Below, one piece after another: positions 7,316 to 61,884 of a DNA stretch of 64,000 nucleotides. This stretch comes from Chloranthus sessilifolius (lineage: Eukaryota; Streptophyta; Magnoliopsida; Chloranthales; Chloranthaceae). Below the pieces are notes generated by a model, which did not search any database, was not told the DNA's origin, and saw only the letters and a list, made by a program, of their open reading frames with translations. Positions within the stretch are counted from its first letter, which is position 1. The number at the start of each line of letters is the position of its first letter. Location: contig CM037598.1 of assembly GCA_021018995.1 (NCBI GenBank), positions 50,956,185-51,020,184 of the forward strand. Direction: 5' to 3'. Both the position numbers and the translations under genes were made by a program.

Positions 7316-9714
7316 CTAATAACTGGGGTCAAAATCTGTATCATAAGGTTGTTCAATGGGATCAGAACTGGAGTCACTGTCAGAGTCAGAACTAGAATCA
7401 GTATTGGAGTCTGAACTCAATTTAGCCTTCTCCTAGATTGTGTTTTGCAGCTCAGTGTATTCCTCTGATTTGATCTTTTTGGTGAGGCCAATGTACTTTC
7501 CAAGTCTAGTAGTCCTCAGTTTTTCCTGGTCAAGCTGTGCTTGCAACATGGTCACCTTGTTCTACTCTCTCCTAACCATCTGAAAAGTTTGACCCAGCAG
7601 GTCCTTCATTTGCTCTCTCTCAAATTTCATGAATAACTCTAATTTATGAATCTGGTTTTCATAAGGGGTTCTAATGTAAGCTTGCAAATCAGCTAACCCC
7701 TTGAGGACATCTCGACAGATATATGGATTTTCTTCCATGGCCCTTTTGAGAGCGGCAAATCTGGGAATGGGAATGGAATGGTAGGGGACCAAAGGTATCC
7801 CAGCTGTGGGAGTGGGAGAAGAGGGGTCCAGAAGGATGACTTCAGGGTCGGTCTGATTGGCTTGATCACAGAAAGTGAGGAGAGGTGAAGGGGACTCAAC
7901 CAGAGGTACCTCAGGTTCAGTTTGGGTAGCATGGGCAGTAGTGGTGAGGGTGGGCAGATAAACCAATACTACCTCAGGTTCAGTTTGTGTAGCATGGTCA
8001 TCAACAGCAGGTACAGTGGTTAAGGTAGTTGTGTGGGATGTGGAGGCTAAGGTTTGGAGAAGGTCATTGGTCATAGACTGATTATCTGTGTTGATCTATA
8101 GTTGTGCTTGGATGGATTGGAGAAAGGTAAGTATTTGGCTAATTGATTCAGGTGTGGGTGAGGTATGCATAGCAGGGGCTGGTAAAACTGAAGTGGATGG
8201 TGGAGGTGCAATGGGTGAAATGGTCAGAAGGGAGAAGTAGCCAAGTGAGTGAAATGAGGAGGTCGTTCAACATTTTCAAAAATAGACCCCATCAATGATG
8301 AATAAGCCTCTGTAGTGAAAGGCTCGTGTTGGGGTATGGGATACTTGTGTGTGTAAGAGGCTTTGGAGAAGAAGAGTGCAAGGAGATTGTTCAATAAACT
8401 CTGTGGCGGTCTTGGGCATTGGTGGGAGAAATTGGTGGTGCGAGTATGGTCTGGAGTGGTTAGTGTAGAGGGGAATCAGAATTGGGATAATGGTGGGTAT
8501 GGGAGATGGGACTGCTGGAATAGGTGAAGAGGTTAAAATGCCAACTTCTTCAAGAATGGGTGCAGCTGAAGAGCTGGTCACCACAGGAAGGACAGCTTCT
8601 TCAAGAATGGGTGCAGCTAAAGAGCTGGTCACCTCAGGGTCTGGCAAAGCAGGTTCTAAGGGAGCTGCAGGGGCAGGTTCATGTATGGCAGGTCCACTAA
8701 CAGCTGCAGATGCAGGCTCAGTAGCAATTGCAGGTGCAGGCTCACCTTCCTCTCTCAGTCTTTTCAGCATTGCTTGGCTTGTAGTCCAAGCCTTTTTCCC
8801 AAAAGTATGAGGAGCTATGACTTCAAATGGCTCCTGGTCATCAATGTCAAACTTAGCTCTTAGTAGGGCTGTGATCAGTCTACCAAATGGGATTCCAAAT
8901 TTACGCTCCTTTACAACTTGGCACTAATATCAGCCATGGCTTCAAAAATTAACATAGGGGCATTGAAAAATTGCCCCTTAGAAAAATGAAAGAGAGCCTC
9001 TAAAATTGGTGTCCTCCTTTCTTGGCTGTGCCCGGTGACATAAAAACTTCCCCTCAAAATTGAATCCATCAATAAAAATTGAGGTGCTAGGTCTCTCCTC
9101 ATTATGGACTGTCCAGTTCCAACGATCCCTTGGGTTAAATGTGCAGCCATTTCTCTGAAAGAGGCTGCTTACGAGTCCAATGGACGGTGAAAAGGTATCC
9201 CCAAAGCATTCCCAATGTCTTCATATGTGACAGTTAGATCACAATCATCAATAAAGATAACAAGAGTAGGGACATCAGCATCTTTTTCTGTCACTTTTAC
9301 CAGGTTTTGGTACCATAATTTCACCATTCGCGGATAAATTTTCTCTGGCAGAGGGGTAAGGATATTGCTCAGTGAGGCATCCCTCATGTATCTTAAAGAT
9401 AGCTGACAGTCCGGTTTGTTGACGAAAAAAGTTTCATCCATGATAAGCTCAGGAATCAGCTTCTGAGCTTCAATGAATGGATTTGGCAGTACCAAATGCA
9501 TAGGCAGAGGAGGAAGCTCAAGCTCAGGACTAGCAGCTGCAGGGATGGGTTCCTCATGTCTAACTTTCTTCCCTTTCTCAATCCTATCAGCTCTATCCAT
9601 TGATAGTTTTCTTTTGGCTGAAGTTTTGGTTTTTCCTTTTGGGGTCGGTTTGCTAATTTTCTTAGCAGAAGATTTTGGGAACATGGCAGCCAGTGATTTT
9701 TCAGCTTTCCCCAT
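7316..9714 (-). pseudogene. Element B ORF2 (env-position ORF), broken
   Basis: About 800 codons. The ATG at 9714 gives MGKAEKSLAAMFPKSSAKK. Order of parts: basic NLS-like stretch (PKGKTKTSAKRKL and KGKKVR); a conserved domain with LPEKIYPRMVKLWYQNL and DDCDLTVTYEDIGNALGIP, reminiscent of the domain annotated as putative plant transposon protein; RRDLAPQFLLMDSILRGSFYVTGH; a Pro/Ala/Thr/Ser-rich middle with a 17-residue tandem repeat; three Q-T-[ED]-P-E-V motifs; a coiled-coil-like stretch (FEREQMKDLLGQTFQMVRRE); and an acidic tail SSSDSDSDSSSD ending DFDPSY at 7316. No signal peptide or membrane segment is visible, so it does not look like an envelope. Broken by stops near 9172, 8911 and 7562 and by frameshifts. 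It has its own upstream motif array (9993-10257). Function unknown; a DNA-binding or regulatory role is inferred. Confidence 0.75.
8545..8646 (-). repeat. 51-bp tandem duplication in ORF2
   Basis: Two copies, 8545-8595 and 8596-8646, encode repeated (S)SAAPILEE-type segments in the low-complexity middle of ORF2. Element E has a longer, degraded version of the same repeat at about 38030-38200. Confidence 0.8.
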
Positions 9715-9992: not shown

Positions 9993-10257
9993 CGAATATG
10001 AAACCCTTACTTCGAAAGGGTTTAAATATGCTCAGAGTTATTTTCGCAAAGTCATTGTTAAGTTTTCAAAAAGTTCCAAAACAGTCCCTTTTTTCAACAG
10101 AGAATGGCATCAGTACCATTCGAAAAGCTAATAGCTTCATAAACAACTTTTCGAAAAGCAAATGGCTTCAGAAACAACTATTCGAAAAGCAAATCATTGC
10201 TTTCGAGCAGTTCGTTACAAATCCAGATCCTTTTCAAAAAGTAAATTGAACTTTGCG
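9993..10257 (-). promoter_or_regulatory. Family I CpG-motif array between integrase and ORF2 (B)
   Basis: The nonamer TTCGAAAAG/TTCGCAAAG, the same as in this element's LTR, recurs here. CpG cytosines include 9993 and 10013 (20 apart), then 10121, 10152, 10183 and 10204 (31, 31, 21). Near the right edge two TTGCGAA motifs are 22 apart. The region separates pol from ORF2 and is upstream of the ORF2 ATG (9714). Confidence 0.75.
10018..10029 (-). promoter_or_regulatory. Putative ORF2 core promoter (B)
   Basis: Minus strand ATATTTAAACCC, about 300 bp upstream of the ORF2 ATG. Equivalent sequences lie at the same place in E (36718-36730), C (24055-24067) and F (53153-53164). TATA-like; transcription from it is not shown. 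Confidence 0.5.
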
Positions 10258-10402
10258 AAAAGACAATTTTTACTTTGCGAATTAATTTTTCACATATTTA
10301 AACATTGTGAAAAGAGAACAAACATGAATAAAAACAGAGAAATAGAAGACTAAGCAAAAACTATAGAACAAAAACATATTGTACAGTTGTATACCCTCAG
10401 AT

Positions 10403-17418: not shown

Positions 17419-17635
17419 CGCAAGGTACTGTGACTCCTGAAGCTCTTTTCACAAAGTTCAGGTTCTGTTCGCAAGGCATTCTCTTCTTTTCGAATAGGTC
17501 AATCATCCTTTCGAAGAGTTCAGGTGCTCTTCGAAAACTAAGCCTGGAGCTTTTAGTTCTTTTCACAGAGTTCATGTTCTTTTCGAAATGTTCAGATTCT
17601 TTTCGAAAAGCACTCTGTAGTGTATTTTTCTGTTC
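17419..17635 (-). promoter_or_regulatory. Family I CpG-motif array, B 5' LTR
   Basis: Same TTTTCGCAAGG, TTTTCGAATAG and TTTCGAAGAG series as in the 3' LTR, with two CpGs decayed to CA (TTTTCACAAAG, TTTTCACAGAG). Confidence 0.72.
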
Positions 17636-17910
17636 GAATTGCTCCACATTTCTTTTCTGGGTAGAGACCAGGTCTTTGCCTCTTCAGTTCAGGCATTTTG
17701 ATAGCTAGTGAGGTTGTCCCTTCTCTTTCTTCCTTTGGATCGACATGGATTATCATCCTTTTGGCACTTTTAGGCTGCTTTCATTGTTAAGCCTGTCTTT
17801 ATTGTTAGCTGTAACACAAGCACTTAAAACACTTATTTAGTTCTCTCAAGGGTCTATCAAGGCCTAGGTTAAAGGGTGGAGAATGGTATTTTCTAGTTCT
17901 CAATAGTTCC

Positions 17911-18817
17911 TTGGATGCCTCGGGGTGTGTGCATGGAGATTAGAGCATTGGAGTGCATGCCCTAGTTGCTGGAAGTTCCCAGATTGCCCCTGCAAAAGTG
18001 GGGAGAAGTTAAGATCCCGAGCCTCGCTAGGTAGCAAGGATTTCCAGGTCTTGTCGAGTCATAGAATTGGGGTCGTGGGATTAAATTGACTTGAAGGTCT
18101 TACAGTCGCGGGATTGATACTTTGGTCATCGCAGGAATGCTCTGGTCGTGGCGAGATTGAGCTTTCAATTTGAATGGCGCGGGAATTGTGTGCGTGGTTC
18201 GTTCCTTGGTGAATCTCACGGAGATCCTCGCAAAGAAGCAATGTGCATGGGCTTTTGGATCATGAGATCAGTTTCCTAAAGGTCTGTATCTCGCAGCCAC
18301 TGCGCGACAGCTACGCACAGGAATGCCTGGAGCTCTCTCTCCTAAGTGAATCGTGTGAAGATTAAAGGTGCCTTTCTTGAGCTGCGCGAGACTGCGCGAG
18401 AGCTTATGACTGAGCCTTGCGAGAACTGTGCGAAGTCTACTTTCTGGGCTCTTCTGTCATTCATCTGCGCGAGAATAGTGCGAGCTGTTGGTGTGCTACC
18501 TTCAGAAACCCACGACAACTGCACGAAGCATTCTTTCTGATTCAATTTAAACCTTGCGACATCTGTGCGAGGCTCACTTCTTGACATTTTTCTGCTTTGT
18601 TATGCCTATGTTGCAGCCAATTCTCTGTCTGGGTCCAACCTCCTTTCTTCTGAGGAACTTCTAGGGCAACAGTAGGCTTCTTGGCATGGTTAAGGCCTTA
18701 TCTGCAGCTGCTGCTTTTTACCTACAAGATGGGCTTAACACATATTTATTAAATGACTAAGGGTCTAAAAGAGAGTAAGTTAAGGGGTGAAAAGTGGTAC
18801 TTTTCGGGTCTCAACAC
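17911..18817 (-). repeat. Element C 3' LTR, segment 3
   Basis: Resumes the family II LTR after element B (TTGGATGCCTCGGGG) and ends CTCAACA at 18817 against the PPT. Contains the family II motif array. Confidence 0.92.
18004..18572 (-). promoter_or_regulatory. Family II CpG-motif array, C 3' LTR
   Basis: Repeats of TGCGCGAGA, TGTGCGAG and CTCGCAA, often in pairs one helical turn apart. CGA cytosines pair as 18387/18397 (10), 18420/18431 (11), 18470/18481 (11), 18513/18524 (11) and 18557/18568 (11). The motif differs from family I and recurs in this element's integrase-ORF2 gap. Confidence 0.75.
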
Positions 18818-20652: not shown

Positions 20653-23600
20653 CTAAGAGGACTCAGAATCTGAATCTGAATCTATGAACCAGTCCCAGCC
20701 CATCTTTTGTGCTTGTTTCCTAAGTGCAGCGTTGTCCTTTATCTTGCTTGCTTGCTTCTCAGTTGGACTCTTTTTCTTCTTTGCTTTGCTCTCAACTGGG
20801 CTCTTTTTCTTTGGCTGCTTTGGTTTCTTAGGTTGGGCTGGTGGTTTCCTCATGGTAGGAGCTTTTGGTGCCCTCACCCTCATTTTTTTGGTTTTGGGTT
20901 CAGGAGAGATCGTAGGGGATTTTCCTTTGTCTTGCTTAGTGGGGGCTACTAGGGACTTCCCTTTTGCAGGCTGGTCATGTGGTGGTTCCTCCTCAGACTG
21001 GGCAGCTAGCTCTTTGCCAATTTTAATAGAGGCTGCTGTGGAAGCAGTCCTCTTAGCAGTGACTTTCCTCTGTTTAGGATAAGTTTGCTCAGTAGGGTGT
21101 GTAGCAGGAGTTGGGGTCGGTTGAGCCTTCTCTGTAAGGGGTGCATTAGGAGGGGCAACAGGGGATTTCCCTTTATCTGGCTGGCCAAGTGATTGTGCCT
21201 CCTCAGACTGGGTAGCTGGGGCTTGAGAAGGTTTAGGCTCAGGTGCAGGCATGAGTACAGAGAGTGGGGTGAAATGAGCTGCTTCGGCGCGACCAATCTG
21301 ACTTCCAAAGAGGCTATCTGAATTTTAGCTTTGAGGAGGTCAGTGTCATGGATTTCCTTTTAGAGTCGAAAGATTTCCTGGGCATTGTTGAGTCTCTTTT
21401 CAAACAACCTGGCCTTCATCCTCTCCACATTGGTATTTGCCTTCTCTAGCTCTAAATTCATCTGATGATAAGTAGCCATGGTTTTTGCCTTCTCATATGC
21501 CTCCAAGATATTGGTCCACCCAAGGGAAATACTCAGTAATTGCTTTCTATGGGCTTCCTCAATTTCACTAAGCTGCTGTAGCAGGGGGGTCTCAATGGAC
21601 TGCCTAAGTTGGGCCATGCCCCCCAGGACATCCCTCCTAAGGTAGAGATTGTCCCTCATGGCATGGAGGATGGTGAGGTAGGGAGGGATGTAAAAGGAGT
21701 GTTTGGGTGCGATGGGAAGACAGGAAGAGAGGAAGAGAGGAAGTGGAAGGAGCAAAATGTGGTTGGTCCTGGGTGGGGAAAGTGGATTTATTAGTGGGTA
21801 AGTCTAGTTGTTGGGAGAGGGTAACAGGTGCTGGGTCTGTTTGTGCCTTCTTGTCAGTGAATGTTGGAGGGGATAGGATAAGAGGTGGGATTGAAGGCAT
21901 GGGGGGAAAAGAAAATGAGGTAGGCTCACTAGGAGTAGGGGGTGATGGTGGAGGGAAAAAGGGAAGGTGAAAGGTATGAAAGAGAATGGTTGGGTCGTGG
22001 GGTCAGGGCTGGGAGGGGAAAGGACCAGGGGGTTTGAGTGGATTGTTGAGGGATGGGTGGGTTAGTCAATGTCTGTAGGGTGGATTTGATGGATGTGAGT
22101 TCAGTCTGCATCTAAATCTGGGTGTGTGTAGTGGTGGATAGTTGGGATTGGATGTCTTGGATGAGGGAGAGGATGAGTGTCAGTGTGTCTGGGTTGGGTG
22201 GTTGAGATTGTGTAGAAGATGGTACAGGTTGAAAATGTGAGGAAGGGGCATGATGGAAAGTAGAAGGAGGAGGAGATTAGGGTTCTGGTGAGTGATGTGG
22301 TGATGTAATTGGGGAGTCCGGGAGGGGGGTGTAGTGGGTGGGCATGGTGTCAAGGAAACTAGCAATAAAGGCTTTGAATCTTGTGGTTGTGTTAGGGTTG
22401 AGGTCTATGTCTGTGAATGGGGATGTAGTAGGCATGGCTGGAGTGGTATCTTCTTCAATGTGAGGTGTGTCAGTGGGAATAAATGGGATTGTGGGTGGTG
22501 TTTGGGAGATGGTGGGGGTTGTCTCAGTGGTTTTCCTTTTCTTATAGGAAATGAGTGGAGGGTTGTCAGGTTTATGTGAAGATGATGGGGGTATTGGGGT
22601 TGTGTATTGAGGTAGGGTAGGGGATGGTGAGGTGCTGACATGGGGGTTGGTTTCCTCCCAGGTACCAATCATAGGAGAAAGGGGTGTAGGGGAGGAAGGG
22701 AGAGATGCTGATGGTGGAATGGGAGGGATGTTGTGAGGGATGGGGATCTGGAGTAAAGGTGGGGGGATCTTTCGTGGTGGTGACAAGCTTTAGAATCTCC
22801 TGTGTAGTAACAGGGGTAGGCCTTCTAACAGCTGCCTCTTCTACTTGCTTGGAGGGGGCCTGAGTCTCAGCTTTCTTCTTCTTCTGTGCTTCCATCAGGC
22901 TCCTGCTGATTCCCCATTGCCTCTTGGTGAAAGTTGTAGGAGCAAGGGTGGTAGTCTCCTTGGTTTTTGTTATCTTGTACCCCTCTTTTAGAAGCAGTTT
23001 GGTGATGACTCTGGCATAGGGGAGTGTGTGTGGCTTCTTGTTCTGCCCTAATTTCTCCACCAAATCCTTCATTACTTCAAAGATTAACCAGGCTGTAGGA
23101 AGCCATGGCCCAGAGAGAACGAGTAGACAGCATCAACAATAGGAGCTCTCCTCTCCTGCTGATGGCCTGAGCAATAGATGTTCTTTCTCAGGACCTGATC
23201 AATGAAAAGGAGTCCAGGCTCCAACTCTCTTCTTCTGATAGAATCTCCTGAGGCCTTTAATCCTCTAGTTAGAGCCCTTACAATTATATCAATTGAGGCA
23301 CTCAGGGGGGGGTCATATCCACAGCTAGGGTCAAATGCGACTGGGATGCCCAATACCTCTGCAATCACCTTGGGGCTAATAAACATTTCAAAATCATCAA
23401 TTAACACAAGGAGACCTACTTATCCATCTTTGTCTTTGGTGACCCTGATGTGCTGGTAAAAGAGTTACACTAGCCTAGGGTAGGCTAGTGCTGGAATTCC
23501 TCTCATCAAGGGTGTCAGGCTAGCCTTGCTCATAAATTGAATGGCAGGGGCAGAGAGAGGCTCCTTCTCAAAGAAGGGTAGGTCGAAAGTTGTCTCAGGC

Positions 23601-23779
23601 TCCAAGGGGATTAAAGCCATGAGCTCAGAGGGTGTAGAAAACTCAGGGGTTGGCTCCTCCACCTCCTCAATCACTTCCTTCCCTTTTCTCGGTGCCTTTG
23701 AAGTTTTGACCTCCATAGCAGCGGGTTCAACAGGGGCCTTATCCTTGCCCATTTTCTTTCGTGCACTCTTAGGGACCAT
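20653..23779 (-). pseudogene. Element C ORF2, broken
   Basis: ATG at 23779 (MVPKSARKKMGKDKAPVEP); an in-frame ATG also lies at 23797. Conserved domain ASLTPLMRGIPALAYPRLV, LIDDFEMFISPKVIAEVLGIP, then ELEPGLLFIDQVLRKNIYCSGHQQERRAPIVDA. A basic block with KRQWGISRSL and EAQKKKKAE follows, then a long Pro/Thr/Ser-rich segment with STQT near 22045 and KKAQTDP near 21850. A Lys-rich region (KKPKQPKKKSPVESKAKKKK) precedes the acidic end DSDSDSESS at 20653. About 1040 codons, longer than in B. Stops and several frameshifts (near 23465, 23075, 22000-21600, 21300) make it non-functional as read. No membrane segment is visible. Confidence 0.72.
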
Positions 23780-24054
23780 TCCAAACTCTACTTTCAAAAA
23801 TAAAAATAGGGGACTAAGATCTAAGTGTTTACCCTAAAATTGTAGGGTTTGGTTCGATTTGACGCACAGTGTACCACAAGATCTCTGAGCAGAGGGAAAT
23901 TGATGGGGATGATGTTAGGAACAAATCGGTAGATTCCTGGTGCGAATGATGGGTTGTAGGATGGACGCTGGAGGAGAGAGGGAGAAGAGCACCGGAAGCT
24001 AGGGTTTCACTGGATGGAGAAGAAAGAGAGAGTACTGGAAAGGGAGGCAAGTGC

Positions 24055-24067
24055 GGGGTTAAAATAC
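24055..24067 (-). promoter_or_regulatory. Putative ORF2 core promoter (C)
   Basis: Minus strand GTATTTTAACCCC, about 280 bp upstream of the ORF2 ATG; positional equivalent of the B, E and F sequences. Confidence 0.45.
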
Positions 24068-24500
24068 TTGTCGCTAAGCTTGGCGCGCTTTGGAAATATC
24101 TGGTCGCGGGATTGGAAATGAAACCTAGCGAAGATGCAATTCAACTTGGATTGCACAAGAGTCTCCCAGGTTTACCTTTGAGCATGTGATAGCTTGTGAA
24201 GAATTTTATGTGAATTGTGCGAGAGTCTCCCATGCTTCCTTTTGGATTGCGCGAGGGGCTTTGAGGTTCACTTTGAATCTCGCGATTGCCTTTGATTCTC
24301 GCAACAGCTAATGAAGTATTCTATTTGAATTGCGCGAGAGTCTCCCAGGCTTCCTTTTGAACCTCGCGACAGCTAATGAAGTATTCTATTTGAATTGCGC
24401 GAGAGGTTCCCAGGTTTACTTTGAATCTTGGTACAACTATTGAAGGGTTCTATGTGAATTGTGCGAGAGTCTCTCAGGCCTCCTTTTGGACCCAGCGACA
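24063..24500 (-). promoter_or_regulatory. Family II CpG-motif array between integrase and ORF2 (C)
   Basis: TTGCGCGAGAG, TTGTGCGAGAG, CTCGCGACAG and CTCGCAACAG recur, matching the motif in this element's LTR. From about 24180 the array is built on imperfect repeats of about 65 bp: GCAACAGCTA at 24301 and GCGACAGCTA at 24366. Confidence 0.75.
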
Positions 24501-29184: not shown

Positions 29185-29435
29185 ATGGAGCAATTCGAAC
29201 AGAAAAATGCACTACAGAGTACTTTTCGCAATGAACCTGAACTGTTCGCAAAGAACCTAAAACTGAAAAGAACAAAAACTCCAGGCTTAAGCTTTCGAAG
29301 AGCATCTGAACTCTTCGAAGAGATGATTTACCTTTTCGAAAAGAAGAAAACTCAATTCGAACAGAACCAGAACCTTGCGAAAAGAGCTTCAGGAGTTACA
29401 ACACCTTGCGAAAAGCCCCCTAAAATTTGTGAAAA
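29185..29435 (+). promoter_or_regulatory. Family I CpG-motif array, E 5' LTR
   Basis: ATTCGAACAG, TTCGCAAAG, CTTTCGAAGAG, TCTTCGAAGAG, TTTTCGAAAAG and TTGCGAAAAG in series, about 350-600 bp upstream of the TATA box. Confidence 0.75.
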
Positions 29436-34690: not shown

Positions 34691-35160
34691 TATTCATTAC
34701 CTTTTGAGCGATGTGTGATGCATCAGTTATGCTTTGGGAGCTGTCCTTGGGAGAGAAAGAGAAGCTGCCTCATGTCATAGCTTATGCCGATAGATCAATG
34801 ATTGATGCACAACTCAATTACACAACAAGCGAGAAGAGCTGCGGCAATTGTTTTGCTTTAGAAAAATTCGAGGTCATATGTCTTGGGTTCACAAATAGTG
34901 GTGTTCATCGACCACTCTTTGAAATACCTTACATGCGAGAAGGACACCAAACCAAGATTAATGGTGGATTCTCCTATTACAGAATTTGATTCTGAGATAA
35001 AAAGATAAAAGGGGTGGAGAATGTGGTGGCGATCACCATCTAGAATTTTAAGCTTCTTTGAGATTGATAGGTGCCTATCAATGAATCTTTCCACGATGAG
35101 CAACTTTTGCCATTAGTGTACACACTCCTTGGTTTGCAAACATAGTCAACTTTTTGGCTC
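34691..35160 (+). pseudogene. Element E RNase H
   Basis: CDASV, KLPHVIAYADRSMIDAQLNY and KLE/KFE-type remnants of ALEKFR; the TDHS box and VENVVADHLSR are visible only across frames. Confidence 0.75.
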
Positions 35161-35190
35161 TTTGGAAGAATTCCTCAACATTGGAATATA

Positions 35191-36375: not shown

Positions 36376-36456
36376 ATCGATGGTAGATAAGCATGTATTT
36401 ATTTCATAGTTTTGCTTAGTTTCTTTATTTCTGTTTTTATTCCTGATTTGTCTCTT

Positions 36457-36640
36457 TTCGCATGGTTTAAATATGCTCCAAGATAATTCGCAAAGCAATA
36501 ATTCTCTTTTCTCATAGTTCAATTTACTTTTCGCATAGACTCTGGATTGGTAGAAGCGCTTTCGAAAGCAAGATTTGCTTTTCAAATAGTTAGATTCAAG
36601 CTATTCTTTTGAAAAGATGTTTACAGCGATTAACTTTTGA
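36457..36640 (+). promoter_or_regulatory. Family I CpG-motif array between integrase and ORF2 (E)
   Basis: TTTTCGCATGG, ATTCGCAAAG, TTTTCGCATAG and CTTTCGAAAGC: the LTR motif again, more decayed than in B. Confidence 0.6.
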
Positions 36641-36717
36641 ATGGTACTAATGCCATTCGATTGTAAAAAGTTTTGGAACTTTTGAAAACTTATAAAGAAC
36701 TGCGAAATTAACTCGAG

Positions 36718-36730
36718 TATATTTAAACCC
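36718..36730 (+). promoter_or_regulatory. Putative ORF2 core promoter (E)
   Basis: TATATTTAAACCC, about 290 bp upstream of the ORF2 ATG; equivalent to 10018-10029 in B. Confidence 0.5.
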
Positions 36731-37016
36731 TTTGAAGTAGGGTTTCATATTCAAAACTAGAAGCGACTGTTCACGGAAACCCCATTTCTTTCTTTCCTTG
36801 CATAATTTGAGAAGCTTGCTACATTTTCTTCACCTTTGTTCGATCATTTGAGTTTTGAGAAGGATTTTAGCTTCTGATCGGGGATTTACGCAAGCAAACA
36901 ACTTCGTTCAATTAAAACCCTAGATCTCCGTATTTTCTGCACATTCTCTCTGTTTATCATTTAAAAATTTTCAATTTGTGACATCTGCATTGTGGGCATT
37001 TCATACATCAATTTGA

Positions 37017-39574
37017 ATGGGAAGCGAGAAAATCAATGGCCATGTTCCCAAAATCCTCTGCTAAGAAAGTTAGCAAACCTACCCCCAAGGGAAAAGCCAA
37101 AACTTCAGCCAAAAGAAAACTATCTATGAATAAAGCGGGTAGGGTGGAGAAAGGGAAGAAAGTGTGGCCTGAGGAACCCATCCCAACTTGCTAGTCACGA
37201 GCAGAGCTTCCTCCTGCCCTATACATTTGGTACTGCCAAACCCATTCATTGAAGCTCGAAGTTAATTCTGAGCATTGTTGATGAAACTTTTTTAAACAAA
37301 CCATGCAGTGCTATCTTTAAGATACATAAGGAAGCCGCACTGCAATATCCTTACCCTTTGCCAGAGAAATTTTACCCACGAATGGTGAAGTTATGGTACC
37401 AAAACCTAATTAAGGTCACTGAAAGAGATGCTGATGTTCCTACCCTGGTTATCTTTTTTGATGATTGCGATCTTATGGTCACATTTGAAGACATAGGGAA
37501 TGCTTTGGGGATACCCTTCCAATTTGATCCTGCTGGGCCAGTGGCTGCACCAGAAACAACCTCCTTTAGAGAAATGGCTGCACATTTAACCCAAGGAATT
37601 GTGGGCCTTGGGCATCCATCATGAGAGAGACCTAGCCCCCAATTTCTATTGATGGACTCCATTTTGAGGGAATTTTTATGTTCAGACACGAAAGAGGAGA
37701 ACACCAATTCTAGAGGCTCTTTTTCATTTTTCTAAGGCGATTTTCAATGCTCCGATGTTAATTTTGAAGCCATGGTGATATTAGTGCCAAGTTGAAAAAG
37801 GAGGCAGAAATTTTTGGTAGATTGATCACGACCCTCCTCGAGCCAAGTTTGACATTGATAATGAGGAGCCATTGAGTCATTGCTCCTCACAATTTTGGGA
37901 AAAAAGGCTTGGACTACAAGCCAAGCCATCTTGTGAAGAATGAGAGGAAGGTGAACACACTGCACTGCAAGTAATGAACACACTTTTTGAACACCTGCAG
38001 TTCCCTTAGAACCGATTTTGCCAGAACCTGTGGTGACCAGCTCTTTAGCTGCACCACTTCTCGCGACTGCTAGACCACTGTGACCTCTTTAGCTGCACCA
38101 CTTCTCTCGACTCTGCGAGACCACAGCTCTTTAGTGCACCACTTCTCACTGCCAAACCACCTGGTGACCAGCTCTTTATTGCCTCTATTGTTGAAGAAAC
38201 TTTCCTTCCCATGGTGACCACTCTTCACGCACCAATTTTTGAGGAAGTTGGCCTTTCACCCTCCTCCCTATTCCAGCCACCACTTCACCTATCCCACTGT
38301 CCCATCTCCCATACCTCCATTATTCCAATTAATGATTCCCCTACACCAACCACTCCAACCATACTCACACCACCAATTTCTCCCACCAATGCCCATGTTT
38401 TAGTAGCAGATTTTATTGCCCCATCTCCTGCACTCTCCTCCCAAAACCCTCAAATTCACCGCCATTCACACACACCTGAAGTATCCCATACACCTGAACC
38501 TGAGCCTTTCACTACAGAGGCTTATTCTTCCTTAATGGGATCTATTTTTGAAACCATGGGACTTGAACCTACCCCTATACCTGACCCTCATCATTTCACC
38601 CATTTACTTACTTCCCCCTTTACAGCCCTTGCACCTCCACCCTCCACTTAGCTTGTACCTGCCTCGCTATGCCCACCTCTCCCCCACCTGCCTCTATTAC
38701 CCAAATACTTGCCTACCTCCAATCCATCCAAGCCCAACTCCAAATCAACACCGAAAACCAGTCTGTGACCAATGACCTACTCCAAACCTTAGCCTCCACG
38801 TCACTCACAACCACCATTACCCCTTTACCTACTGTTTATTCCCATGCTACCCAAACTAAACCAGAGGTAGTATCGGTTGATCTGCCCACCCCCACCACTA
38901 CTTCCCATGCTACCCAAACTGAACCAGAGGTAGTATTGGTTGATCACCCACCCACCACTCGCCCATGCAACCCAAAGCTGAACACAAGTCCCTCTGGTGG
39001 CATCCCTTCACCACTCCCCACTTTCATTGAGCAAGCCACTCGGGACCGACCACAAGTCCTCCTTCTGGACACTTCTTCTTCCCCTCCCACAGCTGGGACA
39101 CCTTTGGTCCCCTACCATTCCATTCCCCTTCCCCGATTTGCCTCCCTCAGAAGAGCCATGGAAGAAAATCCTTATATCTGCAGAGATGTTCTAAAAGGGG
39201 TAGCTGATTTACAAGCCTACATTCGAACCCCTTATGAAAACTAGATTCGAAAGGTAGAGTTATTTAGGAAATTTGAGAGAGAGAAAATGAAGGACTTGCT
39301 GGGTCAAACCTTTCAGATGGTTAGGAGCGACCAGCACAAGGTGACCATGTTACAAGCACAGCTTGACCAAGAAAAGCTGAAGACCACTAGACTTGGCAAG
39401 TACATTGGCCTCACCAAAAAGATAAAATCAGAGGAATACACTGAGCTGCAAAACACAATCCAGGAGAAGGCTCAATCAAGTTCGAGACTCAATCGATTCC
39501 ATTCGATTCGAAGGTGACTCCAGTTCTGAGCCAATTGAACCAACTTATGATACAGATTTTGACCCAGTTATTAG
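37017..39574 (+). pseudogene. Element E ORF2, broken
   Basis: Homologous to the B ORF2: SSAKKVSKPTPKGKAKTSAK, LPEKFYPRMVKLWYQNLIKV, FDDCDLMVTFEDIGNALGIP, then a degraded repeat region (38.03-38.20 kb), a Pro/Thr-rich middle with two SHATQT[KE]PEVV motifs (38.85-38.94 kb), IPLPRFASLRRAMEENPYICR, coiled-coil-like region MKDLLGQTFQMVRSDQHKVT, and an acidic tail in shifted frame. Ends near the TAG at 39572. Many indels. Confidence 0.75.
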
Positions 39575-39730
39575 ATCACATTGTACTTATCTGTGTTATG
39601 AGTTTGTAATATAAAATTCTGGTTTTTCTGTGAAATTACTATGCATTTATGTTCTTTCTTTTTGTCATTATATATTTTTTTTTATTGCTTCTTTTCTTTG
39701 CTTTGGACCAGTGCGGACCCTGCTCCCCTT

Positions 39731-39743
39731 AGGTTTGGGGGTG
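39731..39743 (+). other. Second, internal PPT-like tract (E)
   Basis: AGGTTTGGGGGTG followed by TGTGGCAG, identical to the terminal PPT at 41307-41319. Confidence 0.75.
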
Positions 39744-41306: not shown

Positions 41307-41319
41307 AGGTTTGGGGGTG
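41307..41319 (+). other. Element E polypurine tract
   Basis: AGGTTTGGGGGTG directly before the TGTTGAG start of the 3' LTR. Confidence 0.92.
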
Positions 41320-43179
41320 TGTTGAGAACTGAAAAATACCATTTTTCACCCCTTAACTTGAGTCTTGATAGACCTTTGAGAGAACTAAATAAGTGTTTTA
41401 AGTGCTTGTGTTGTAGCTAACAATAAAGATAGGCTTAACCATAAAAGCAGCGTAAAAGTGCCAAAAAGATGACAGCCCATGTCAATCCAAAGGAAGAAAG
41501 AGAAGAAACAACCTCACTAGCTGTTGGAAGGTCTGAATTGAAGAGGTAAAGACCTGGTCTCAACCCAGAGAAGAAGTATGGAGTAATTCGAACAGAAAAA
41601 TGCACTACAGAGTACTTTTCGCAAAGAACCTGAACTGTTCGCAAAGAACCTGAAACTCTGCGAAAAGAATAAAAACTCCAGGCTTAAGCTTTCGAAGAGC
41701 ATCTGAACACTTCGAAGAGATGATTTACCTTTTTGAAAAGAAGAAAACTCAATTCGAACAGAACCAGAACCTTGCGAAAAGAGCTTCAGGAGTTACAACA
41801 CCTTGCGAAAAGCCCCCTAAACTTTGCGAAAAGGTATTCTTGAGGTTCTCAGCTTTTGCAAGGGCAATTCAGTAATCTATTTCATGCGTCCCAATGCATT
41901 TAAAAACCTAGGGACATTCCAGAGGATTCTAAGCATGAAGCGAACGCATATTCCACCCCACGTGAGCACCCAGAGATGAAATAACTTGGCGGGAACTTCT
42001 AGAAACTCTAACAAATTTTCAAAATGCATAATAGAATTGATGCCTTTTTCACCTGATTGGTTGAACCAGATCGAGGAATTCTGATTGGCCAGAACAGATT
42101 TGGATCCTCGGGCTTAAACACCATTGGTCAATACAGATCTGAGCACCTCTGATTGGTTGATACACATCTGAGCTGGACTTGGGGAAAACTATAAATAGAG
42201 GAACCATTTGCCCAATTGGGGCATCTAGATTTTGAGTTTCATTCCTATTCCCCCATTTCCAAATCAGATAGTTTATCTGAAATCCCTGTAATAGCTTCAC
42301 TTTGACTTGCAATTGGGAGATGTGAGACATTTCTGTAATTCAAAAGAGAGTTGTATTCAAGACTACAAATCTGAGAGCTGTTTAAGCTGTGCTCTGTAAT
42401 TGTAATGGTGGATTTGAAAAGGTTGTTGTAAATCGTATATTCTCAATTAGACTCATGTTAAGGGTTCCCTCTGATCTCCTTATTGCATTAGACTCCTTTA
42501 GATTTACTGTTTTTCATGCAATTTCCCTTGATTCATTAATCCTGTGAGAATTAGTGTTGGTAACCTAATCTCTCACGGCATTTGTAGTGATGCTTCTTGT
42601 TCTAAACTAAGGCTTTGGATTAAAAACTATTGGATGGTTTGTGGCCATTAAAGTGGACAGACCATAGCCATAAGCTTAAACCTAATCCTTAAATTAGATT
42701 TATTTCTCATACATCTGCGCTTGTAGCCAGATGAAGATTGGATCATCTCTCCGTTGAGCTGCAGTCGTTCTCATTAGTTTTCAAGGACCAAATCAAAGTT
42801 AGATATTACTTCTCCATTTTTTATATAAGTTTACCTCAAACGTTTCCCCAACTCGGATCTGGATCACTTAGTTTAATTTTTACTTTTATCATTTAGTTAA
42901 TGTGACAAATTCAACCTCCCATCTTATGTGCTTTCTAGATAGGATAAGAGGCCAGATTTGGTAGCTCATATCTGGAGGTTTATCTTGCATTTTAGACAAA
43001 TTCTCTGTGGGCGATCTTTCACTCACTTACATTTAAAACTTGCTACAATTGGCCCTGATCTTGCAGGCTAATTCACTTCTACCTGTGCTAATATTTCTTT
43101 ATTTTTTTCAGTATAATTGAGCAGTTGCAAACCTGTTTTCAAAACACACATAAATCAAGCACACTAAGAAGCAACAACA
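41320..43179 (+). repeat. Element E 3' LTR
   Basis: 1860 bp, near-identical partner of 28927-30757; TATA box at 42190-42198. Confidence 0.96.
41589..41827 (+). promoter_or_regulatory. Family I CpG-motif array, E 3' LTR (best-phased copy)
   Basis: CpG cytosines at 41589, 41620, 41640, 41661, 41693, 41713, (41734, decayed to TG), 41755, 41775, 41816 and 41827. Steps 31, 20, 21, 32, 20, 21, 21, 20, 41, 11: all close to whole multiples of 10.35 bp, 23 turns in 238 bp. Motif TTCG[CA]A[AG]AG or its reverse. Confidence 0.8.
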
Positions 43180-43184
43180 CCAGA

Positions 43185-46654: not shown

Positions 46655-47170
46655 CGAACCTCGCTAGGTAGCAAGGATTTCCAAGTCTTGTCGCGTGATA
46701 GAATTGGCATCGTGGGATTGAATTTACTTGAAGCTCTTATAGTCGCGGGATTGATACTTGGGTCATTGCGGGAATGCTCTGGTCATTGCGGGAATGCTCT
46801 TGGTGAATCTCGTGGAGATCCTCGCGAAGAAGTAATGTGCATGGGCTTCTGGATCGTGTGAGCAGTTCCCTGAAGGTCTGTATCTTGCGGCCACTGCTCG
46901 ACAACTGCGCACAGGAATGCCTGGAGCTCTCTCTCCTCAGTGAATCGCGCAAAGATTAAATGCGCCTTTCTTGAGCTGCGCGAGACTGCGCGAGAGCTTA
47001 TGACTGAGCCTCACGAGAACTGCGTGAAGTCTACTTTCTAGGCTCTTCTGCCATTCATCTGTGCGAGAACAACACAAGCAGTTGGTGTGCTGTCTTTAGA
47101 AACCCACGATAATTGCGCGAAGCATTCTTTCTGATTTAATTTGAACCTTGCGACATCTGCGCGTGGCTCA
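46655..47170 (-). promoter_or_regulatory. Family II CpG-motif array, C 5' LTR
   Basis: TGCGCGAGACTGCGCGAGAG at about 46977-46996, TCGCGTG, TCGCGGG and TGCGCGAAG; several pairs seen in the 3' LTR have lost CpGs here. Confidence 0.7.
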
Positions 47171-49240: not shown

Positions 49241-49247
49241 TTATATA
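49241..49247 (-). promoter_or_regulatory. TATA box, D LTR
   Basis: Minus strand TATATAA, at the position equivalent to the C LTR box. Confidence 0.5.
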
Positions 49248-49449
49248 CTCTATCCATAAGGCCTTGGCTCAATAGAGATTAACCCTAATTTTTCCAGAAG
49301 ACGTGGCACTGTTATAGCCCTTGAATGCCTTGTGATGTGTGCCTCAAAATTCACACCTCAGGAAGTTTGTCCTAACCTTGGGAAATTCCTAAAAGGTCCT
49401 TGAGTTAAAACTGAGAAGTGGAGAGCCCGAGCTTCACAGGGCTGGCATC

Positions 49450-49790
49450 TGCATTAATTTACTCTCGCAGTGGCAGAGCCGTCGCGGAGGAGTATTTGGC
49501 TTAGGAGGATTGTTCACTCTCGCGATAGATTCTTAGTTGATCGCACAGCTGCTTTGCGCTGCAATGCTGTCGCAGAGGTGATTTGGAATGCCTGAATTTT
49601 TCGTGTAATAGAGCTTTAGAAGTTCTCTCTCGCTGGATACTCGCGCTGGTAGTCTCCTGCGCTCGTGTAGTAACCGGTTAGGCTTCAGAGCACGCGAGAG
49701 CTACGCCAGGAAAATTTTAGGGGTCTCTCTCTTCCAGGGCTTTGTGAGAACTCCGCGAGGTGACAAATTATTCTTTATGCATATGGACTC
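49450..49790 (-). promoter_or_regulatory. Family III CpG-motif array, D LTR
   Basis: TCTCGCG, TCGCGGAGG, TGTCGCAGAGG, CGCGAGAG and CCGCGAGG; related to family II. One pair of TCGC (TCGCTGGATACTCGCGCTGG) is 11 bp apart. Confidence 0.6.
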
Positions 49791-50323
49791 GCTATGTTCC
49801 GTGTCTGGCTACTTTAACGCTCGATCTCCACTAGAGCTTCTCGAGCACAAATTCTGAGGGTTTTAAGATGTGAGATGTTTGCAATTTCTTTACTGCTCTC
49901 CTATTGACTGCGTGTCATATCTGCCTGAGGGCAGCTTCCACTACATCCATAGCTCCACGAGGGAGCTCCTTAACTCTATGAGGTAAGTCTTTTGATCCTC
50001 TGATGCATTGCACTTGCTGCTGTTGCAGCTTCCTCCTGTCGCATCTAACTTCTTTCATCTGTTACACTTTTGGTCAATGATGACCAAAAATATGAGTCAC
50101 CATGGTGAGCACTACCAGGGTGTTCCATTTGGCTTTGGCTCAGCTGTCATCTTTGTATGTTTTCTTTCTCTTCTTTGGACCAATAAACAGGGATTTTGTA
50201 TTAAGCGGCAGAGTTTATTGCTAACTACAAAACACACCTAACAAATGATTATTAGTCTGCTTCAAGGTTCATCAAAGGCTAGGTTAAGAGGTGAAAAGTG
50301 GTACTTTTTAGTGAATAACACTA

Positions 50324-50490: not shown

Positions 50491-52817
50491 TTATTGCACA
50501 CAAGTTATTACAAAGCACAAGAGAAACAATACAACGGCCCAATGGGGAGGGTCATCCACAGAGGAGGGGGTGATGGGTAGCTCAGGAGGTGGTGGAGATG
50601 GTAAAATGAATGAAAGTGGTAGCTCCTCTTCCACATCAATTGATTCAGGTGGGGTGGAGGGGTAGGTGAAAGGTAAAGAGGGTAGGTAAGCTTCTATGGG
50701 GTCAATTCGGGTTGCAACAAGGATGGACAAAACCACTTCTTCAAAATCAGTTTGAGTGGAGGCATCAGAAGTAAGTACTACAGGGGATAGTGAGATTGGT
50801 TCTTCCTTCTTAGTAGTTGTAGGCATTACTATAGGGGACAGCTGAGGGGATGGAGGACGAGTAGGTACAGGGATAGGTGTAGGAGCAGGAATTGGAAGAG
50901 GTTGAATGGTTGAGGTAGATGGGATTAGAGTGGATTGAATGGCATGGAGGCAGGTAGCCATAGCATACTGGTTTGCTGTGTTGTTTTGGAGCTGGGCTAG
51001 TATAGATGTGAGAAGGGAAAGAATCTGGGTAGAGGCCTCTGGTAAAATTTGGGCTTGGGTAACAGGTGGAATGAGTATAATGGGCTAGAAAGGAGATGTG
51101 GGAGCATGCTGGAATTGAGTGGCCTGTGGAGAGTCAGGTAAAGGGGAGTACTCATGCCCAATGTCCTCCACAATGGAGTCAATCAAGGATGAATACTCCT
51201 TAGTGGTGAAATGTTCTAGGTCATGGGTATGTGCAAGTGACATGGGGGTAGTGGGGTCACTCTCCAACGGTAGGGAAAGTGGAGAGGAGACTGGGACCGA
51301 TGATGTAGATGGGGCTGCTGGTGCAGGGCTTAAGGGTTCAACAACTGAGATGGATGGCTAGCTGGAGGGGTTATGGGTGACTTTGATTTTCTCTGATAGG
51401 TGGATGTGATGGGAAGTGAAGGTAGGGTAGCAATTGGGTATGTGGTAGGAGGAGTTGACACAGGGGTGATTGTGGTGATGATAGAAGGGGTGGCTAAGCT
51501 GCTGGAATGTATGGGAACTGAAATGGAAGGAATGGAAGGTGATGGAATGGAGATGCTGACAACAGCAAAGCTGACAATAAACAAGGGCACATCAGTGGAA
51601 GGGGGGAGTATGGGTGCAAAGGTCACAGGTGGAGGCACTAAGCTAGGACCAGCAAAGGTAGGCAGAGGATCTGATCTAGCTAATGTGGAGGTCCCAGGTG
51701 CAGCCACTGATGTGGCTGATGGGGCTGTGGGTATTATAGGTGCAGCTATTGGCCACCTGAGATGTTTTCATTTTAGGACCGTCAACTAATTTTTTCTTGC
51801 TTTTCCCAATCAGGGTCCTACTAGGAGACTAGGCCCTACTCCCAAACACCTTAGGGCTCATTTTCTCCACTGGCTCATCTTTTTGTATCACAAATTTCCC
51901 TTTTCTTAGCAAAGCAGTGATGAGCCTACTGTAGGGTAACCCTGGCAAGGCCTATCCTCTTTGGATCTTGTCATTCACATCTACCATGACCTCAAATATC
52001 AGTTGAGAGGCATTCAAGAATTGGCCCTTGAAGAAAAAGTAGAGGGCATCCACTATAGGGGTTCCCCTCTCCTGCTGATGTCTACTCACATAAATGTTCT
52101 TCCTCAAAATTGAGTCTATGAAAAGCAGGCTAGGGTCTAGATCTCTCCTCATTAATGATTCCCCAGAGACCACAATGCCTTAAGTAAGATGTTTGGCCAT
52201 TGCTCGGAAGGATACAGTCTCAGGTGCTCCTAGGCTATAAAGTAAATAAAAAACTGATGGGGCCCCTAATGCCAACCCAATATCACTATAATCCACAACC
52301 AATCCCAATTATCTATCAAAACCACAAGGGTAGGCTCAGTTGACCCTGGCTTCATCTTCTTTCTGATATTCTGATACAATAATTTGACCAGTCTAGGGTA
52401 GGATTTTTCTTGTAATGGGGTCAACAAAGGTGTTAGGGATGCCTTCACCAAGTAGTCCAAGGTCTTCTTGCAGTCCTCTATTTTAGAAAAATAAGGTAGG
52501 CAAAAAATTGTCTCAGGAATTAGGCCTAAAGCATCCACAAACTCATTGGGGGTTGTCAGGTTCTTAGGGATTTTAGGTACAACCTCAGGTTGAGGCTCAG
52601 GCACAGGGACATCCTCAAAAATCTCTTCAATTATTTTTGCTTTCTTGGCTTTCTTATCCTTCTTAGCTTTCCCAGGTTTATCCATGATGAGCTTCCTCTT
52701 AGTAGGTGGGTCATCTTTGGGCTGTGTGTCAATCCTACTTGATTTTCTAGTGGATTTTTGGGCAGATTTGGATGGGGCTTTGAAAAAGTCAGCCAATGTA
52801 TCCTCACGGTTAGCCAT
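50491..52817 (-). pseudogene. Element F ORF2, broken
   Basis: ATG at 52817 (MANREDTLADFFKAPSKSAQ). A strongly basic NLS-like block (TKRKLIMDKPGKAKKDKKAK) is followed by SLTPLLTPLQEKSYPRLVKL, LYQNIRKKMKPGSTEPTLVV and, in shifted frame, DLDPSLLFIDSILRKNIYVS with HQQERGTPIVDALYFFFKG. The middle is Pro/Thr/Ser-rich with one DASTQTDFEEVV motif. No acidic Ser/Asp tail: the last frame ends in a hydrophobic WAVVLFLLCFVITCVQ, which aligns with non-coding sequence after the B stop. Frameshifted near 52280, stopped near 51950 and elsewhere. Confidence 0.72.
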
Positions 52818-53119
52818 TGGTTACAAAAATCCACACAATCACTCTCAACAACCACAACAAACTTCCTTTGCCCAAGAAATTATCCACACACACAGAAATA
52901 TGGAAGTACAAAGCTTGAAAATCACAAAGTGGAGGTTGAAGAAGCACTTACCCACAGAACCTAGGGTTTCTCAGATCTTGCGGTACACGGTGCTAAATGT
53001 CGCCTTTGTAAAATTAAAGCAATTGAGCCAATGGAAGGGTGATTGGAGTTGGAGTCAGTGAGGTGGAGGAGAAAGAAGAAAGTGGGAAATTGGGCACAAG
53101 AAGAATAAAGCTTTGAGCA

Positions 53120-53630
53120 GAAGTTGTCGAATGGATGAAATGAGTTGTCGATAGGTTTAAAATAGATAAAATCCTATTTCGACAGGATTGGAGAGAGGAT
53201 TTGGATAGGTTTGCGCAACCTGTCGAATGATTAAAATAAGCTAGGATGACAGGATTGTCAGACTGAAGGTCTAGAGAGGTTTTCTCAAACCTTTTGACAG
53301 GTACAGAGCTTCAGAAAAATCAATTCGAGAGGTTCATGGAACCTCTCGAAAGGATGAAAACTTTTAGATGTTAAGGCTCTGAGAGGTCTCTCAACCTCTT
53401 GACAGGTACTTTGAACCTATCGAAAATGTAATCAACAGCCTTCAGTACCTCTCGACAACATCTCACATCCTTTTGACAGGTTCACAGATCCTGTCAAAAT
53501 TCATTTGTACACCTTCAGTACCTGTCAAGATCAACTTAACTTCTCGACAGGATTCAATACTTGTTGAAATTCACAAGGAGAGCTTTTAGTACCTGTCGAA
53601 CTTCTCATAGCACCTCTCGACAAGTTATTT
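53120..53630 (-). promoter_or_regulatory. Family IV CpG-motif array between integrase and ORF2 (F)
   Basis: TCGACAGG, TCGAGAGG and TTGACAGG with GGTTC, often as inverted pairs with a 3-base spacer. Arms 53324-53335 and 53339-53350 are a perfect 12-bp inverted repeat. Others: 53399-53409 with 53413-53423, and 53471-53483 with 53487-53499. Same motif as in this element's LTR. Confidence 0.8.
53153..53164 (-). promoter_or_regulatory. Putative ORF2 core promoter (F)
   Basis: Minus strand CTATTTTAAACC, about 340 bp upstream of the ORF2 ATG. Confidence 0.45.
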
Positions 53631-53852
53631 CTCAGTTTAAAAGTATTTCTCATCAGTTCACAGTCAATTCTCCACATAGATTTGTCAATCCTATTCTACT
53701 CCCATTCATTTCTCATGCCTTGGAATTGATGACTCATAATTCTAAATGAAAAAAAACTAATCAAAATTGGCAACATATTTACAATGCCAAACAGTTTTGA
53801 AAACAACCAAAACTGACAGTTATGATACATAATATACAATATTGAAAATCAA

Positions 53853-60725: not shown

Positions 60726-61005
60726 GTCTTCCCTTCTGTCCTCAGATCTGTTTCAACCAATCAGAGCTCAAGGGAATAAGTCTGTTATTCTGAGCTGCTG
60801 ATGTGGTTGATTTTTCTTCTAGAAGCTTTCCACCAATTGGTCCAAACTAGCCAAGTACATGTGAGGTGGTTAGAGGGTTCCCATTCATGCCCATTTGTAT
60901 TTTAAAAATACCTCCAAGGGTTGTTAACATGCCTTAGAACGCGTGCATAGAGCACTGAAGTGAGCAGCTGATGTGGCTAGAACTGAGAAGTTCCCAATTC
61001 GTGTG

Positions 61006-61505
61006 TCGAGAGGTTCAGACAACCTTTCGACAGGTTCTTAGTCCATTTGGTGCTCATTTCGACAGGTTGGGGTAGGCTTTCGACAGGTTTTGTTGAACTG
61101 GTCGGCAAGATATCCTCAATATTTAACTATTGTTCGAGCTCCATTCATTCTCTCAACAGGTTATAATCCAACCTCTCGATTTCTTACATAGCTCCAGTTG
61201 AACTTGCGATAGGTTCTGTTCTACTTCTCAACAGGTTGACTCAACCTCGTGAAAATGGATGTGGTTTCAGGTAAGTCCTTGCTAGGTTGATTTTGACTGC
61301 TCGCTAGGTTTAGGGAAACCTCTCGACATGTAGCTGGAACCTCACGAGCTCCCCTGTATCTCCAGCTGACCTATTGACAGGATGCACTTTACTAATCGAC
61401 AGGTTCTGTGAACCTATCGAACTCTTCACTTTTTCACCTCAGGACCTCTCGACTGGTTGGAATACATCTCTAGAACCACTCGACAGGTTGAATTAACCTC
61501 TCGAG
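61006..61505 (-). promoter_or_regulatory. Family IV CpG-motif array, F 5' LTR
   Basis: About 15 copies of TCGACAGGTT or variants. Inverted pairs with 3-base spacers: 61006-61016 with 61020-61030, 61396-61406 with 61410-61420, and 61480-61490 with 61494-61504; the paired TCGA cores are 21 bp apart each time. Confidence 0.8.
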
Positions 61506-61884
61506 CTCTTCTGCTCTTTGCTTCCACAGCTGGCACACATCTTTGGGGTGTTGTCCTTCATATGTCAGCACACAGTAGCCTCATGAGGGGTTCAATCTTC
61601 ATCCAATGCAGCTGCTCTTGCTCCCACGTGTGCCCAATTGGACACATGGAATTCCCATAGACTTTTGAAACTCTGTGGACTACTTGATGGCTGGCCTTTT
61701 GGCCTGCAGGAGAACATGTATGAGCAGTAGGTCCCTTCTTTGACATATTTAGCTGGATGTCAGCACTATGACTACACTTTATTGCGTAACTACAAAACAT
61801 ACTCAAGGCACATTATTAGTCACCTCAAAAGTCCATCAAAGGTCAGGTGAAGAGGTGAAAAATGGTATTTTTCTTTGATCAACA

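Follow-up and report, generated by a model that had tools for sequence, protein, structure and literature searches.

Family-matched CpG-centred motif arrays in the LTRs and internal linkers of Athila-type Gypsy retrotransposons, helically spaced in two families: candidate operators for an element-encoded protein

In nested plant retrotransposons of three families (I, II and III), CpG-centred motifs that differ from family to family are found in the U3 region of the long terminal repeat (LTR) and again in the linker between pol and an additional open reading frame, ORF3. This matching of LTR and linker motifs by family is the main new result. Families I and III moreover have their sites spaced mostly by two or three helical turns. 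The arrays are interpreted here, at roughly even odds, as operators for a dimeric DNA-binding protein that would act on the LTR promoter and on an internal ORF3 promoter, the binder presumably being the element's own ORF3 product. The evidence base is one stretch of 64 kb (the window) from one host, in which every ORF3 copy is broken.

The window is filled by nested Gypsy LTR retrotransposons from a plant genome, as judged from self-comparison, Pfam domains and gag matches in plants, the latter with 33-54% identity among 120 listed of 322 and with the named ones belonging to scattered flowering plants. The elements are the following:

3730-17903, minus strand: element B, family I
28927-43180, plus strand: element E, family I
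1154-2950: solo LTR, family I
393-47410, minus strand: element C, family II, enclosing B, E and the solo LTR
~59740-61885: 5' LTR of the family III element
~47620-50335: fourth LTR type (family IV)

Five-base target duplications were read by eye for the solo LTR (AAAGA), B (GTTCC), E (CCAGA) and C (TATAC). Gag, protease, reverse transcriptase, RNase H and integrase are present in Gypsy order, and the RVT_1-type reverse transcriptase agrees with Athila-type Ty3/gypsy elements, as does the additional ORF, in sense orientation, that B, C, E and the family III element carry between pol and the 3' LTR. Because each copy is broken, the Pfam domain set (PF03732, PF13650, PF00078, PF17919, PF00665) was assembled across elements, with some matches (rve in III, PF13650 in C) below cut-off. 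Athila-type elements have a tRNA-Asp primer site; exact TTTTTGGCRYC occurs five times in the window, in all cases directly after one of the five 5' LTRs, and with up to one mismatch there are 13 matches versus 6.5 expected, only those five being exact. By eye, a polypurine-like stretch was recognised before the family IV LTR (47620-61885 region) and a primer-site-like sequence after it, hence this LTR may serve two elements, as the 3' LTR for the internal region of family III and as the 5' LTR for a further element, the arrangement being perhaps that of an inter-family recombinant. In the protease region of the family III element (57635-57683), a 25 bp unit is present twice with 100% matching.

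Motif arrays were delimited in LTRs of all four families and in linkers of families I-III as follows:

41589..41828, plus strand: phased motif array in the U3 of the E 3' LTR, family I, 11 sites of CTTTTCGAAAAG type
29196..29410, plus strand: family I array in the E 5' LTR, CpG peak 10.10 bp, power 7.44/9
5114..5331, minus strand: family I array in the B 3' LTR, CpG peak 10.30 bp, power 8.53/9
17420..17637, minus strand: family I array in the B 5' LTR, CpG peak 10.30 bp, power 7.79/8
1412..1647, plus strand: family I array in the solo LTR, 10.20 bp by CpG and 10.36 bp by motif
9993..10316, minus strand: B linker array (family I) between pol and ORF3, with the motif of the LTR, 10.54 bp phase
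36440..36780, plus strand: E linker array (family I), decayed, five motif matches, unphased
60990..61520, minus strand: family III LTR array, palindromic AACCTSTCGASAGGTT-type sites, 10.52 bp phase
53090..53670, minus strand: family III linker array, with the motif of the family III LTR, 10.44 bp phase
46660..47170, minus strand: family II (element C) 5' LTR array, CTCTCGCGCA-type sites, phase weak at most, p 0.04
18030..18640, minus strand: family II (element C) 3' LTR array, unphased, p 0.20
24090..24500, minus strand: family II linker array, motif CTCTCGCGCAATTC as in the family II LTR, tandem units of 32-33/65 bp, unphased, p 0.20
49440..50060, minus strand: family IV LTR, CpG-rich array with some CTCTCGCG-like sites, unphased, p 0.30; its linker lies outside the window

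The motif cores read TTCGAA, TCTCGCG and CTSTCGASAG, with a TCG-centred core kept in families I-III and with palindromy that is clear in families I and III and less so in II. Matching by family is apparent from the 9-mers shared between U3 and linker, with shuffles as reference. The B linker shares 34 with the U3 of the E 3' LTR (10.7 expected, z 5.5), 39 with that of the B 3' LTR (9.9, z 7.0) and 28 with that of the solo LTR (10.7, z 4.1); the U3 and own linker of element C (family II) share 31 (9.8, z 5.5), and those of family III share 62 (15.2, z 8.7). Off-family pairs (z -1.1 to 2.8) and U5 (z -1.1 to 2.7) served as controls; against the three U3s of family I, the E linker reached z 3.6, 1.6 and 0.6. 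The limits of the arrays were set by eye around CpG clusters; the tests with shared 9-mers and with swapped models took whole U3, LTR and linker stretches. At low threshold, models swapped between families find 6-13 sites, which are also phased (e.g., 13 for the III-linker model in the E 3' LTR and 11 for the B-linker model in the family III LTR). At a threshold of 10, the swapped models retain 1, 1, 4 and 1 sites versus 8-11 for the matched pairs apart from the E linker, which has 3. The family specificity of the motifs is, thus, graded.

Helical spacing had been claimed in a first-pass annotation for the family I LTR, and its core stands with corrections. The E 3' LTR array contains ten CpGs (41589, 41620, 41640, 41661, 41693, 41713, 41755, 41775, 41806, 41827) at steps of 31, 20, 21, 32, 20, 42, 20, 31 and 21 bp; the CpG-less site CCTTTTTGAAAAGA (~41734, TpG for CpG) divides the 42 bp step into 21+21, giving 11 motif sites at steps of 31, 20, 21, 32, 20, 21, 21, 20, 31 and 21 bp. 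Accordingly, the annotated recurrence of 11 motifs is right and that of 11 CpGs is not, and the first eight annotated steps are confirmed, while the final two, given as 41 and 11 bp, are actually 31 and 21 bp. The span of 238 bp, or about 23 turns, follows from the outermost CpG positions, and the annotated fit to multiples of 10.35 bp is borne out by a CpG-only periodogram (period range of all CpG periodograms, 7-16 bp), which peaks at 10.36 bp with a power of 9.54/10, reached in 0 of 2000 random placements. As to the like stepping reported for two further copies, the B 3' LTR agrees, whereas the solo LTR is the weakest family I copy by CpG (10.20 bp, power 6.92/9, p 0.0025); of its nine CpGs, those at 1506 and 1646 lack a motif match, and its motif steps are 31, 41, 31, 20, 21, 21, 20 and 31 bp. 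The top CpG peak falls at 10.10-10.36 bp in each of the five family I LTR copies, which are homologous and, therefore, amount to one observation, not five.

Support that is independent of the family I LTRs is provided by the phasing in family III and in the internal arrays. The family III LTR, whose palindrome AACCTSTCGASAGGTT is unlike the family I motif, has 19 model matches with a peak at 10.52 bp (15.59/19). Models trained on the LTR alone recover 12 family I sites at 10.54 bp in the B linker and 16 family III sites at 10.44 bp in the family III linker, and reverse training, in which the linker model scans the LTR, also recovers phased sites for both B and III. These linker scans and reverse LTR scans are the held-out results, the E 3' LTR and family III LTR models having been trained on those very arrays. 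Against 3000 random placements, phasing by motif model has p 0 for the E 3' LTR, the B 3' LTR and the family III LTR, and p 0.0003 for the solo LTR, the B linker and the family III linker. With motif peaks of 10.28-10.54 bp in the arrays of the E 3' LTR (10.36 bp by CpG), the B linker, the family III LTR and the family III linker, the placement of the sites on one face of the helix, which the annotation had taken as expected for a cooperatively binding protein, has good support in geometric terms.

When 51 adjacent steps from these four arrays were pooled, the best period was 10.45 bp with a mean cosine of 0.865, a value reached by 0 of 20000 jittered sets (mean 0.036, maximum 0.428); by our own count from the step list, 46 of the 51 steps deviate by no more than 1.5 bp from a multiple of 10.45 bp. 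The remaining family I LTR copies, the E linker (5 matches) and the arrays of families II and IV stayed outside the pool, and 5 of 60 motif matches were excluded from it: two in the E 3' LTR, one in the B linker and one in the family III LTR outside the arrays and, as the fifth, a site in the family III linker 8 bp from a better match; the motif-model periodograms kept all matches. Background CpG segments of the window, with families II and IV included, reach maximal R2 values of 0.68 (44 segments of 260 bp) and 0.70 (63 segments of 540 bp), as compared with 0.83-0.97 and 0.69-0.95, respectively, for the 14 best array segments per size, several of which come from homologous copies.

Universal phasing was rejected, given that no clear phase was seen in families II and IV or in the E linker. 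The E linker has p 0.35 by motif, with five matches, and p 0.07 by CpG, and a scan of families II and IV with the consensus CTSTCGCG, run without a null, revealed no clear phase, the top peak of the family II linker being at 10.62 bp with a power of only 4.80/22. Either phasing is dispensable, or families II and IV use another geometry. Within the family II LTR array, a perfect 20 bp duplication with the unit GGTCATTGCGGGAATGCTCT is found at 46761-46800.

The CpG content of the arrays bears on their history. The observed/expected ratio is 0.54-1.20 in the arrays versus 0.17 outside, and the arrays, making up 7.1% of the window, hold 173 of its 588 CpGs, an excess that is in part one of choice because the arrays were drawn around CpG clusters. 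Comparison of the two LTRs of E and of those of B (96% identity) showed that, of 61 CpG sites, 26 are retained by only one copy, with TG/CA in the other at 19 of the 26; loss of CpG to TG/CA fits methylation decay after insertion. The pattern suggests that the motif CpGs may have been kept by selection as long as the lineage was active.

Each linker also contains a second element, a TATTTWAAMCC box at the ORF3 end of the array, and its four exact matches, one per linker, are the only ones in the window (0.24 expected). The pattern was written after the linkers had been inspected; therefore, its absence elsewhere tells more than its presence there.

10018..10028, minus strand: TATTTAAACCC box near the ORF3 end of the B linker array
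36720..36730, plus strand: TATTTAAACCC box in the E linker
53154..53164, minus strand: TATTTTAAACC box near the ORF3 end of the family III linker array
24056..24066, minus strand: TATTTTAACCC box at the ORF3 end of the family II linker array

In B (10014-10028) and III (53149-53164), the box is followed directly by a motif site, ~14 bp from where TATTTWAA starts; a protein on that site could block the core promoter, which may amount to negative autoregulation. In the LTRs, a TATA-like box, picked among one or two TATA-like matches per LTR, follows the array ~220-385 bp downstream in the E 3' LTR, the B 3' LTR and families II, III and IV.

According to the proposed mechanism, the CpG motifs would be near-palindromic sites for a sequence-specific, probably dimeric DNA-binding protein. 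Because the sites of families I and III are whole helical turns apart, the bound proteins would be placed on one face of the helix, where they could touch along the array. In families I-III, the array would be used twice, in U3 ahead of the TATA box and in the linker that separates pol from ORF3, with the TATTTWAAMCC box as the putative ORF3 core promoter, so that one protein per family would control both the promoter of the genomic RNA and that of ORF3. The binder would most likely be the element's own ORF3 product in an autoregulated circuit, and its effect may be activation, repression or protection from methylation. The sites, their phasing in families I and III, the agreement of LTR and linker motifs by family, the box and the downstream location of ORF3 are observed directly; binding, the dimer, cooperativity, promoter activity and the identity of the binder are what we infer. 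In its most far-reaching form, held only tentatively, the proposal is that Athila-type ORF3, which generally goes by the name envelope-like, encodes a family-specific DNA-binding regulator that would form a one-faced filament on phased palindromic operators in the LTR and at its own promoter, a counterpart of VANC in which motif and protein would diverge together.

The ORF3 protein is a candidate for the array binder because of its position and the family matching. Its coding regions are the following:

7562..9714, minus strand: ORF3 region of B, several broken frames
37020..39517, plus strand: ORF3 region of E, broken
20653..23833, minus strand: ORF3 region of C, broken
50491..52820, minus strand: ORF3 region downstream of the family III linker, broken

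The ORF3 blocks of families I, II and III resemble each other in parts, and a lysine-rich stretch is located at the ORF3 start in B, E and III. Ten ORF3 pieces had no Pfam match at the cut-off, and no DNA-binding domain was recognised in them; a homologue search with two pieces (255 and 8 candidates) retrieved none, and an AlphaFold model of a 111-residue family II piece from four sequences was, with a pLDDT of 53, too poor for use. Hydrophobic stretches occur within ORF3, the most pronounced (1.77) being that at the end of the block in family III; they would suit a membrane protein, and ORF3 may have a membrane role. In the ORF3 region of E (38041-38147), a 44 bp tandem repeat contains TTCTCGCGAC, which resembles the family II motif.

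Relatives were sought in viral contigs, where none were found, and five plant-like loci (L001-L005) encoding a plant-like Gypsy gag were encountered within bacterial assemblies, apparently as plant contamination of bacterial genome records. Of these, L004, with an open gag-pol frame of 2004 residues, and L005 extend well past pol; being 99.7% alike, they are one element. Compared with L004/L005, the ORF3 pieces gave nothing beyond a 45-residue match (E 0.067). The strongest CpG segments of this pair near 10.5 bp (R2 0.61 with 8 CpGs at 10.56 bp and 0.49 with 9 CpGs at 10.38 bp) are weaker than the phased arrays of the window, with a period near theirs.

A different binder is conceivable, namely a host transcription factor or chromatin protein, for which the elements would have captured sites in both promoters, and the families would have diverged in adaptation to separate members of a single host factor family. 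Host factor sites are often present in LTRs, and the TCG-centred core common to families I-III, the cross-recognition of some sites between families at low threshold and the failure of Pfam to recognise a DNA-binding domain in ORF3 are all in keeping with this explanation. We nevertheless regard it as unlikely, albeit a serious contender; the families carry different motifs within one genome, and since each motif is matched between the family's own LTR and its own linker, a family-encoded binder is the easier assumption. Furthermore, L004/L005, a comparable element lacking an ORF3 match, has no array as strong (best R2 0.61, 8 CpGs), although this is a single case judged by CpGs only. Similarity of LTR and linker could also stem from template switching that copied a block from one array to the other, in either direction, in which case the motif matching would need no selection. 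The within-family motif match and the local LTR-linker scores of 11-28 (spans of 30-134 bp), mostly above the shuffled maxima of 14-16, are compatible with such an event; however, the alignment of several phased motifs would give scores of this size, true homologues score 166-194, and the order and steps of the sites are unlike between LTR and linker. With no common block and with 9-14 bp as the length of the longest common words, block copying was rejected as scarcely credible.

Two further explanations address the spacing itself. Neutral tandem duplication of a 20-21 bp unit, with the helical fit as a coincidence of unit length, could draw on the short 20-21 bp arrays detected by Tandem Repeats Finder in the family I LTRs and on those of 21 and 31 bp in the B linker, as well as on one spacer column each with an agreement of 0.53 in the E 3' LTR, the B linker and the family III linker. 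The same program, however, detected no tandem array in the family III LTR or linker, and the spacer columns 8-14 bases from the motif centre agree at 0.26-0.35 in the family III LTR and mostly at 0.18-0.42 in the others, against a background of 0.26-0.28 (compared without a significance test). In addition, phasing extends to steps of 3, 5 and 7 turns, the 24 pooled steps outside the 19-23 bp class having a mean cosine of 0.841 at 10.40 bp. Owing to the low spacer homology, tandem duplication fails as an explanation, and one simple duplication, which the first-pass annotation had named as the alternative to its claim, was rejected as the main cause on account of near-background spacers and phased long steps; we consider it very improbable. 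Only slightly more credence is given to the possibility that the period of 10.4 bp is a rotational nucleosome-positioning signal or a DNA-bending lattice and not an operator spacing. AA and TT inside the arrays do peak at 10.36-10.60 bp (range searched, 10-11 bp), but with the motif cores masked, no significant period of 10-11 bp is seen in the A/T and G/C steps of the family III arrays (p 0.12, 0.73, 0.14 and 0.47), so that the signal is unsupported outside the motifs of these arrays, and it would leave the family-matched palindromes of LTR and linker unexplained.

For the preferred reading of the arrays as operators of an element-encoded protein, the RM boxes of Sireviruses are the nearest known system and VANC/VANDAL is the nearest known working system, as far as the available parts of the sources go. 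The RM boxes of these Ty1/copia elements are CpG palindromes of which many copies precede the TATA box within the LTR, with a second set ahead of the ENV-like gene; the motif varies by element with a CGG-CCG core in all but one, an internal promoter has been suggested, and the boxes were called Sirevirus-specific by the authors (PMC2829016, BMC Genomics 2010). Palindromic repeats upstream of TATA in the LTR and before the env-like gene are likewise found here. In contrast, the elements of the window are not Copia but Gypsy (RVT_1, Retrotrans_gag, Gypsy order), their cores are TTCGAA, TCTCGCG and CTSTCGASAG instead of CGG-CCG, and they possess helical phasing (in two families) and the shared TATTTWAAMCC box; no mention of helical spacing was found in the available part of PMC2829016. 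In VANDAL anti-silencing by VANC, family-specific short noncoding motifs, often in tandem, diverge together with their binder, and both binding and methylation loss have been demonstrated; the motifs, YAGTATTAY and AGTTGTCC/AGTTGTAC, contain no CpG and are not palindromes (PMC5735166, in the part available). Family-specific short motifs of the element in noncoding DNA that diverge between relatives are common to both systems; however, VANDALs are Mutator-type DNA transposons, and the arrays of these LTR retrotransposons are known from sequence alone.

Closer by lineage are the Athila elements, which are Gypsy retrotransposons with an extra sense env-like third ORF and with recombination between families (PMC2410132, PMC12844716). 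In sunflower, one Athila clade has a drop of methylation in the LTR, and the authors ask whether ORFs of the elements cause such patterns (PMC12844716). The extra sense ORF of these Gypsy elements is shared here, with the operator arrays as the added feature; in the available portions, the words promoter and tandem are absent from PMC2410132, and operator arrays are described neither there nor in PMC12844716. Retand, whose extra ORF has predicted DNA binding, and Grande, whose gene23 has its own promoter, carry tandem repeats between pol and the 3' LTR (PMC11963269, PMC7264820). An extra ORF and repeats in this position are features in common; unlike here, their ORFs are antisense, and the repeats are not said, in the parts available, to match the LTR. 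Among the literature matches listed, drawn mostly from outside the subscription literature, there was no description of helical spacing or of internal Athila promoters.

With these arrays, ORF3 of a common group of plant retrotransposons would be tied to a concrete target, i.e., an operator of defined spacing, specific for each family and present at two promoters. If the ORF3 protein binds the arrays, its reading as an "envelope" would yield to that of a regulator or an anti-silencing factor, and the helical phase predicts how insertions of half a turn should behave. If the proposal is true, the element families would be systems with private addresses, and their operator code could be read off the sequence.
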